Assembly: GCA_030608465.1 (NCBI GenBank)
Contig: JAUWEC010000007.1
Coordinates: 1-33,180 of the forward strand
Reading direction: 5' to 3'
From: Chloroflexota bacterium
Lineage (GTDB): Bacteria; Chloroflexota; Anaerolineae; Anaerolineales; UBA11858
Length of the DNA stretch: 33,180 bases
The position numbers and the translations under genes are program-made. This document shows, piece after piece, positions 27,469 through 29,522 of the stretch (its first letter is position 1; every line of letters starts with the position of its first letter). The notes beneath the pieces were generated by a model. The model was not told where the DNA came from. It was given only the letters and a program-made list of their open reading frames with translations, and ran no database searches.

Positions 27469-29253
27469 CTACTTACCCAACCGATTGTATTCCTCATCCG
27501 CAACTTCGGGATCCAGTTTCTGGAACAGTGGCTGCGGTTCCCTGAAAGGACTGCCTGGACTGATTTCACTTGGCTGCCACTCACAGCAAACTTCTCCCTC
27601 TCGATATCGCAGCACCTCATGTGTGCCGAGATTGTCGTCCACAGATTCCGTGTATTGTTCCTCAAAGAGCGGTTTATTGTATCCTAGCGTTTGATGCAGC
27701 TGTTCACAGCTAAAGGGGAGTACTGGCGCAAAGAGTATTTTTAGTGAATCAATTGCCCTGATCGCAGTGAAAATAGTTTTCCCTGCCGCATCTTTATCTT
27801 CTTTAATCTCAAACCAGGGAGCCTGATTATCGATGTACTTGTTTACTTCGCCGGCCAGATGCATAGTTTCTGTCAGGGCTGCCCGCAGTTTTACTCTGTT
27901 GTACAGGTCTCCTGCTTTTTTAAATCCTTTCTGAATAACCTCCAGGATAGCCTCGTCCTCCGGGCGCAGGTCTCCCGGATCGGGGATCTTACCTTCCCAC
28001 TGTTTGTGCGCAAAAGACAATACACGGTTGACTAGATTGCCCCAGGTGGCGACCAGCTCATTATTATTGCGGGTGACAAACTCCTTCCACTCCCAATCAG
28101 CGTCCCGGGTTTCCGGCATATTGGCAGTCAGGTAGTATCGAAGAGGATCGGGGTCATAACGGGAGAGAAAATCCAGTCCGTCAACCACCCAGTTCCGGCT
28201 GCCGGAAATTTTCTTTCCTTCCATATTGAGAAATTCGTTGGCAGGAACATCATAGGGAAGCACCAGATTGTGTTTATCGTCTTCGTCAAACAGGGCGCCA
28301 AATGTGTTCCCCACCCCTGCTAATTCTGCCGGCCAGATGACTGCATGAAAAGGGATGTTATCCTTGCCGATAAAATAATAAACCCGGCTGTCGCTGTTGT
28401 ACCACCAGTCCTTCCAGAGCTCTTCATCCCCGCTAAGCGCAGCCCATTCAATGGTAGCCGAAAGATAACCAATGACTGCTTCAAACCAGACGTAGAGGCG
28501 CTTATCTTCCCAGCCATTCACCGGTACCGGAATGCCCCACTTTAAGTCTCTGGTGATAGCCCGACCATGCAAATCTTCGGCCAGGATTTGCCCCAGAGAC
28601 TGACGGATGACATTCGGCCGCCAGTAATCCTCGCGTTCTTTCAGGAAATCCACAATTTTGGATTGCAATGCTCCCAGATCAAGATAAAAATGTTCTGTAT
28701 CCCGCAGTTCCGGTGTCGATCCATCCATCTTGGACCGGGGATTAATCAACTCGTTTGCCTCCAGCAAGTTCCCGCATTGATCACATTGGTCTCCGCGGGC
28801 GTTTTCAAATCCGCAGATATAACAGGTCCCTTCTACATACCGGTCGGGAAGGAAACGCTCCTGCGAGGTTGAATACCACTGCTCCTGGGTTTCGGCATAC
28901 ATGTACCCTTTTTCTTTTAAAGCGCTGAACATAGTCTGTGCAACCCGGAAATGGTTTTCTGTGTGAGTGCTGGTGAAGAGGTCGTAGCTCAAACCTAATT
29001 TTTGAAATAAATCCAGGAATCTTTTGTGATATCGTTGGTAAACTTCTTCCGGAGTGCTGCCATCCTCATCCGCCCGCACAGTGATGGGGGTGCCGTGAGA
29101 ATCAGATCCGGAAACCATCAACACATCGTTGCCTTGCAGGCGATGGAAGCGAGCGTAAATATCTGCCGGCAAATAGGATCCGGTGATATTCCCTACATGT
29201 ATATCAGCGCTGGCGTACGGCCAGGCAACTGCAATAAGGATATTTCTCTTCAT
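27469..29253 (-). CDS. metG: Methionine--tRNA ligase
   Basis: 594 residues. It charges tRNA-Met in the cytoplasm, a class Ia synthetase. The HIGH-type motif is HVGN at 19-22 and the KMSKS-type motif is KKISGS near 345-352. Four cysteines at 144, 147, 157 and 160 (CxxC-x9-CxxC) bind zinc as in the MetG1/E. coli-like group. There is no C-terminal tRNA-binding EMAP domain; the protein stops after the anticodon-binding helical domain. GGGAG lies about seven bases before the ATG. Upstream is a Met-rich leader ORF and a terminator, so expression is probably set by methionine supply or charged tRNA-Met. Only the synthetase itself is present; no methionine biosynthesis gene is nearby. Confidence 0.97.
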   Translation of the reverse strand: MKRNILIAVAWPYASADIHVGNITGSYLPADIYARFHRLQGNDVLMVSGSDSHGTPITVRADEDGSTPEEVYQRYHKRFLDLFQKLGLSYDLFTSTHTENHFRVAQTMFSALKEKGYMYAETQEQWYSTSQERFLPDRYVEGTCYICGFENARGDQCDQCGNLLEANELINPRSKMDGSTPELRDTEHFYLDLGALQSKIVDFLKEREDYWRPNVIRQSLGQILAEDLHGRAITRDLKWGIPVPVNGWEDKRLYVWFEAVIGYLSATIEWAALSGDEELWKDWWYNSDSRVYYFIGKDNIPFHAVIWPAELAGVGNTFGALFDEDDKHNLVLPYDVPANEFLNMEGKKISGSRNWVVDGLDFLSRYDPDPLRYYLTANMPETRDADWEWKEFVTRNNNELVATWGNLVNRVLSFAHKQWEGKIPDPGDLRPEDEAILEVIQKGFKKAGDLYNRVKLRAALTETMHLAGEVNKYIDNQAPWFEIKEDKDAAGKTIFTAIRAIDSLKILFAPVLPFSCEQLHQTLGYNKPLFEEQYTESVDDNLGTHEVLRYREGEVCCEWQPSEISPGSPFREPQPLFQKLDPEVADEEYNRLGK

Positions 29254-29282: not shown

Positions 29283-29310
29283 AAAAAAAAAGCTGTCCGT
29301 GATGGACAGC
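29283..29310 (-). terminator. Attenuator terminator in the metG leader
   Basis: On the minus strand GCTGTCC (29310-29304), loop ATCAC, and GGACAGC (29298-29292) form a perfect 7-bp GC-rich stem followed by nine T residues. It ends only 29 bases before the metG ATG, so it must be bypassed for metG expression unless a further promoter exists in those bases. A competing weaker hairpin (ATGACA against TGTCCAT with one bulge) overlaps its left arm and could serve as antiterminator. Confidence 0.8.
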
Positions 29311-29336
29311 CTGTTGTCATTTTTTCCGAAGATTAA

Positions 29337-29453
29337 TCAACGAGAATTCCCCGGGTGGACGACTGCCCGAATCAAGGTTGGGCGGGACATGCCCATTTGC
29401 ATGGCCATACTCATCACACACACCATCAAAAACACCAGGAACAAGGTACTCAC
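29337..29453 (-). CDS. Met-rich leader peptide upstream of metG (candidate attenuator ORF)
   Basis: Thirty-eight codons from GTG 29453 to TGA 29337. AAAGGA lies about 10 bases upstream. Methionine codons occur at positions 10, 14, 16, 18, 20 and 22, the last five alternating with Ser, Ala, Gln and Gly. The start is hydrophobic (LFLVFLMVCV) and the end is basic and polar (SRPTLIRAVVHPGNSR). Five ATG codons in nine positions is far above what chance gives. Together with the promoter upstream and the terminator downstream it has the layout of a ribosome-mediated attenuator that senses charged tRNA-Met. It could alternatively be a small membrane peptide gene with its own terminator. Confidence 0.55.
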   Translation of the reverse strand: MSTLFLVFLMVCVMSMAMQMGMSRPTLIRAVVHPGNSR

Positions 29454-29493
29454 AATTGTTTTTTCCTTTGTACTCAATCAAAGCTTATCTTGT

Positions 29494-29522
29494 AGTCTAT
29501 ATGGGGATGGATGATTTGTCAA
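29494..29522 (-). promoter_or_regulatory. Sigma-70 promoter of the metG leader
   Basis: On the minus strand a perfect -35 TTGACA (29522-29517) is followed after exactly 17 bases by TAGACT (29499-29494), four of six matching the -10 consensus. Predicted start near 29487, giving a leader transcript of about 205 bases up to the attenuator terminator. Confidence 0.65.

Follow-up and report, generated by a model that had tools for sequence, protein, structure and literature searches.

The leader region upstream of metG

The window analysed in this study, a 33,180-nucleotide stretch of DNA from a member of the Chloroflexota, belongs to a MAG of 2.75 Mb (264 contigs, 86% complete), the closest named relatives of which are Anaerolineales / Chloroflexi MAGs. 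On its minus strand lies metG (27469–29253), encoding a methionyl-tRNA synthetase of 594 aa (Pfam PF09334, E = 8e-145; anticodon-binding domain PF19303), and the region upstream of this gene carries a series of leader elements on the same strand, which were confirmed to the base by sequence inspection. A −35 hexamer, TTGACA (29517–29522), is followed after a 17-base spacer by a −10 hexamer, TAGACT (29494–29499); throughout the ten genomes of the genus, the former is invariant and the latter reads TA(G/A)ACT. The sequence AAAGGA (29464–29469), likely a Shine-Dalgarno element of only moderate strength, is located 10 nt upstream of the GTG start (29453) of a leader-peptide ORF, MSTLFLVFLMVCVMSMAMQMGMSRPTLIRAVVHPGNSR (29337–29453), which consists of 38 codons and a TGA stop (29339–29337). 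This ORF has counterparts in relatives, which maintain its frame, and a Pfam search of its product gave no match. Its Met codons 10, 14, 16, 18, 20 and 22 (29388–29426), which we consider to be the control codons, correspond to a Met density found class-wide.

The ORF is followed by an intrinsic terminator, composed of the 5′ arm GGCTGTCC (29304–29311), the 3′ arm GGACAGCT (29291–29298) and a tract of nine T residues (29283–29291), the first of which is also the last base of the 3′ arm. The two arms form an 8-bp stem with G-U as the outermost pair. The T run is separated from the metG ATG (29253) by 29 bases, in which inspection revealed no promoter-like site from which metG could be transcribed separately. 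The terminator motif occurs only once in its own genome, at metG. Other alternating-Met sites of the same genome were found in unrelated short open stretches. A preliminary description, made before any comparison with relatives, had listed the promoter, AAAGGA, GTG, the 38-codon ORF, the positions of its Met codons, the hairpin, the T9 tract and the 29-base distance; all of these held, base for base. It had also read the arrangement as a Met-sensing attenuator, and this reading is supported by the comparisons below, the regulation itself being inferred.

One alternative is that an undetected tRNA- or SAM-sensing riboswitch (T-box or S-box) controls metG. In favour of this, the genome itself uses both types at other genes: T-boxes were found upstream of pheS, ileS and thrS (G000:C159, C13 and C177; L157–L159) and a single S-box upstream of metK (G000:C70; L144). 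Furthermore, a Met T-box has been listed for metS of Bacillus cereus (PMC3771891, Table 1). However, the metG leader is largely occupied by the ORF, and neither a T-box (RF00230) nor an S-box (RF00162) was matched by Rfam at metG, either in this genome or in the scanned relatives with or without the leader, in agreement with the preliminary description, which had seen neither motif. A T-box, an S-box or any other Rfam family in the window was rejected, as both gathering and permissive thresholds yielded only noise. On the basis of these Rfam scans and of the space taken by the ORF, we regard riboswitch control of metG as extremely improbable.

Conservation of the leader within the genus and the class

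The promoter, the Met-rich ORF and the terminator were present ahead of metG in 10/10 genomes of the genus. Across these ten genomes TTGACAAA, TA(G/A)ACT and the terminator arm GGCTGTCC are invariant, while the remainder of the leader has diverged, with a mean column identity of 65%. In one genome (G006; L009/L063), about 250 nt, repeat-like by eye, are inserted between the terminator and metG, and the attenuator elements are intact. Using stop-anchored close pairs of leader ORFs, we counted substitutions by codon position and obtained shares of 31, 30 and 39%. Among close pairs, 71% of Met codons were kept in place and other residues were 62% identical. The peptide therefore drifts under a retained Met density, which fits a leader peptide and not a small protein. 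The preliminary description had expected conservation of the Met run and the terminator, which held both in the genus and in many other lineages; its expectation of silent substitutions outside the Met codons failed, as the changes are not mainly silent, and this further favours a disposable leader peptide rather than a small protein under conservation.

These observations bear on a second alternative, namely, that the ORF is an independent gene for a small (membrane) protein with a terminator of its own, metG being served by a separate promoter. The N-terminal half of the peptide is hydrophobic in the genus, and terminators normally end genes. Against this, the peptide is not conserved beyond its Met density (62% for other residues, without a strong third-position bias), the leaders of other families are unlike the genus peptide (for example, MNAMMRMHNTIRQG), a second pairing with the terminator is conserved (see below), and the 29 bases before metG lack a promoter-like site. 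The substitution pattern and the absence of peptide similarity led us to reject a conserved small protein, and we regard the independent-gene explanation as very improbable.

To define the distribution of the leader, we compiled 123 non-redundant metG upstream regions of the class from 60 relatives of this genome and 80 named loci, and scored them with a detector that requires a terminator downstream of a short ORF with at least three Met in 12 codons. A Met-dense ORF with a terminator was detected in 62/123 metG upstream regions, compared with 0/123 reverse complements and 0.2% of dinucleotide shuffles; lowering the threshold to at least two Met gave 74 leaders. It should be kept in mind that the calling rule itself selects Met-dense ORFs, and that the sequences are related. 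When applied to the upstream regions of other genes at the same loci, the detector gave 15 hits in 352. By inspection, 13 of these represented metG under another start or spurious frames overlapping metG, one was a leader upstream of an acetyltransferase-like gene preceding metG (L134), and one was a probable false positive. With the metG hits set aside by eye, stray hits are estimated at about one in some 340 upstream regions of other genes. At L134, the acetyltransferase-like gene lies between the Met-rich leader ORF and metG (near 835–1320), apparently an operon version of the arrangement.

Within the leader ORFs, ATG triplets are mostly in frame (397 versus 43 out of frame). Of the leaders, 82% scored at least 9 of 12 for a promoter, compared with 9% of shuffles, and the distance from the end of the ORF to the terminator is commonly 18–30 nt. 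Eight further genomes of the same order, all of family f11, carry the leader without exception (8/8), some of them perhaps belonging to the same species as named loci. The leader was absent from two members of the class from other orders and from 30 genomes of other classes. On the MetG tree the trait requires 14 changes, compared with 30.5 for shuffled labels, indicating clustering together with repeated losses or gains. Anaerolineaceae proper are mostly without the leader, and in a number of genomes lacking the leader, metG follows closely on another gene of the same orientation, in many cases in an apparent operon.

Two side observations were made during this survey. In four loci of one family (L106, L171, L177 and L178), an in-frame insert with LAPGASAG-like residues is located inside the Met-rich leader; a search of this insert for short inverted repeats gave nothing clear. 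In G005, a second match to the terminator lies behind a pyruvate:ferredoxin-oxidoreductase-like gene, without a Met leader.

Alternative pairing of the terminator arm and arrangement of the Met codons

The terminator 5′ arm (segment 3) has a second potential partner. The sequence GGGCAGTC (segment 2; 29361–29368), at codons 29–31 of the leader ORF, forms a perfect 8-bp pairing with GGCTGTCC, G-U pairs included. This antiterminator and the terminator, formed by segments 3 and 4, are mutually exclusive, since both use the 5′ arm. The key alternative structure is this 8-bp pairing, and not the weak alternative hairpin noted in the preliminary description. In the genus, 93.8% of segment 2:3 cells are paired, compared with 30–53% when the segments are slid against each other. 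No covariation was observed in the antiterminator among the ten genomes compared, because the terminator 5′ arm is invariant there.

Across the class, an antiterminator partner at 36–50 nt before the terminator was found in 68% of the 74 leaders, compared with 21% in shuffles. Leader and terminator co-vary: GGCUGUC arms are paired with GGGCAGCC or GGACAGCC, GGCUGCC arms with GGCAGCC, and CCGUCUGUC arms with GACAGACGG. For these three types, the leader zone paired better with its own arm than with foreign-type arms in 27/28, 10/10 and 12/12 cases. These results show that the antiterminator strand and the terminator 5′ arm change together between lineages, with conserved spacing. For 15 leaders with CGCCAGC-type terminators (for example, L034, L093, L108 and L111), no partner was detected at the usual distance; Met codons and terminator are both present in these leaders.

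To model the effect of translation, we folded the RNA between the ribosome and a polymerase that has just finished the terminator 5′ arm, under the assumption that the 3′ edge of the ribosome lies 14 nt beyond the A-site codon. For the window, the predicted probability of 2:3 pairing was 0.51–1.00 with the A site at codons 10–24, with a peak of 0.99–1.00 at codons 20–24, and zero from codon 26 onward. The median over the 74 leaders was 0.70 for a ribosome stalled in the middle of the Met run, 0 at the stop and 0.05 in the absence of a ribosome. Thus, the model predicts that a ribosome at the Met codons permits the antiterminator and that one close to the ORF's end blocks it; the folding proposed in the preliminary description, with a ribosome held at the Met codons, accordingly gave predicted antitermination there and not later. 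In the window without a ribosome, the predicted 2:3 pairing was intermediate (about 0.5), so that an untranslated leader need not lead to termination. The full-length fold at equilibrium favours the terminator, and the attenuator model therefore depends on the co-transcriptional order of events. A possible anti-antiterminator is only tentative. GCCC (segment 1; 29380–29383) could pair with GGGC (29368–29365) at the start of segment 2, as in the centroid fold, but this candidate has only 4 bp, and the class-wide signal for a 1:2 pairing is weak (p about 0.01, with 23/43 below shuffles).

The Met codons show a marked alternation (M-x-M-x-M; 29388–29414 in the window). Over the leaders, an offset of 2 between Met codons was seen 144 times against 79 expected, and adjacent Met codons were depleted, with 44 seen against 86 expected in permuted windows; the z-scores of these statistics are inflated by relatedness. 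We found no explanation for the alternation, and contiguous Met codons are also present in leader ORFs. A third alternative is that the (AUG-N3) repeats serve not as codons but as an RNA recognition element for a trans-acting factor, such as a TRAP-like protein, MetRS or tRNA-Met. The strong alternation speaks for it, and triplet repeats with fixed spacers resemble protein-binding repeats such as those of TRAP. Against it, nearly every ATG belongs to a single frame, that of an ORF closing shortly before the terminator, segment 2 is located inside that ORF, contiguous Met codons occur as well, and the ORF is served by a promoter and, in many leaders, by a suitably placed leaderless AUG. We consider this alternative very unlikely. 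A bolder extension of the attenuator, in which the strict Met-x-Met-x-Met alternation of most leaders adds a sensing layer beyond codon supply, for example through a nascent peptide or an AUG-N3 RNA repeat recognized by MetRS, tRNA-Met or another factor alongside stalling, is also improbable, albeit less so; if true, the switch would combine leader-peptide attenuation with direct recognition.

In about 27 leaders (for example, L125, L126, L129, L131 and L133, and further L011, L021, L107 and L117), a sigma70-type −10 hexamer ends 6–7 nt before the leader ATG. The leader mRNA of these relatives is likely to start at the AUG and to encode a leaderless leader peptide, an inference from sequence alone. 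The window itself is not of this form, having a 5′ leader and the Shine-Dalgarno-like AAAGGA. Shine-Dalgarno signals are weak in many leaders and are a poor class-wide marker, partly because many leaders look leaderless.

A fourth alternative is that a general slowdown of translation, or the state of initiation or coupling, is sensed, the Met codons being incidental. Internal AUGs could serve as start codons, and the leaderless appearance of many leaders would tie them to initiation conditions. Against this, what diverged leaders have kept in common is their Met density, the gene that follows is almost always that of the Met enzyme, and the Met codons are placed where, by the folding model, a stalled ribosome permits the antiterminator. 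We consider sensing of a general slowdown unlikely.

Proposed mechanism and relation to known attenuators

Taken together, sequence and comparison show the ORF, its Met density, the terminator and a mutually exclusive second pairing with conserved spacing. We conclude that metG is very likely (probability about 0.87) governed by a ribosome-mediated, leader-peptide transcription attenuator, a conclusion reached without expression, ribosome-profiling or reporter data. Translation of the leader, stalling of the ribosome, termination in the cell and charged elongator tRNA-Met as the signal are all inferred, and the on/off scheme based on Met-tRNA supply is drawn from the known mechanisms of trp, his and pheST attenuation.

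In this scheme, RNA polymerase would start at the conserved promoter, trailed by a ribosome translating the Met-rich leader ORF. With ample charged elongator tRNA-Met, the ribosome would pass the Met codons and reach or pass segment 2; the terminator 5′ arm would then be free for the 3′ arm, and transcription would stop before metG. If charged tRNA-Met runs short, the ribosome would stall at Met codons 10–22 and leave segment 2 free to pair with the terminator 5′ arm, so that no terminator would form and metG would be transcribed.

The arrangement, which occurs in a widespread group of uncultured Chloroflexota, resembles the trp, his, leu and thr attenuators of Enterobacteria in its short ORF rich in the codon of the pathway amino acid and in its mutually exclusive antiterminator and terminator, a stalled ribosome leading (at metG by inference) to read-through. 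It differs in using Met, in targeting a tRNA synthetase gene and in its occurrence in Chloroflexota. Its control codons alternate and are not contiguous, and segment 2, which in trpL comes after the stop, is here located within the ORF, about 20 nt ahead of the stop. Attenuation of a synthetase gene via codons of its own amino acid has precedents. The pheST operon of Escherichia coli has a leader-peptide attenuator; a trpS attenuator has been predicted in Streptomyces (PMC1262725), and leader peptides of hisS/hisZ in bacilli (PMC2965389). The metG leader differs from these in the synthetase and the phylum, and it is conserved over a large part of the class and shares its genome with T-boxes that precede other synthetase genes.

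The mycobacterial polycysteine ORFs, which are leaderless and short, confer cysteine-responsive attenuation on downstream genes (Canestrari et al. 2020, as described in PMC9031893). They share with the metG leaders an ORF rich in one amino acid on a probably leaderless transcript, but the metG leaders use Met in place of Cys and have a terminator/antiterminator pair, and the leaderless form is seen only in relatives, the window itself lacking it. The methionine T-box of Staphylococcus aureus metICFE, which prefers initiator tRNA (PMC3771891), and that of B. cereus metS answer the charging of tRNA-Met by transcription antitermination, as is proposed for metG. A T-box binds uncharged tRNA directly, whereas the internal AUGs of the metG leader would report charged elongator tRNA via the ribosome.

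The principle of attenuation is classical, and it is the amino acid, the gene and the phylum that appear to be new for it; no earlier Met-codon attenuator on metG was found in the literature searched, in which subscription papers were mostly outside coverage. As leader and terminator have changed in concert between lineages, nature supplies ready-made variants for testing. If the proposed mechanism is true, methionine, with an AUG codon that also starts translation, would join the amino acids sensed by classical attenuators, at the gene whose product charges initiator as well as elongator tRNA-Met. Leader-peptide attenuation would then be of old standing and conserved in Chloroflexota, beyond the groups in which it has been described, and a single genome would divide its tRNA synthetase genes between T-boxes (pheS, ileS and thrS) and a leader peptide (metG).
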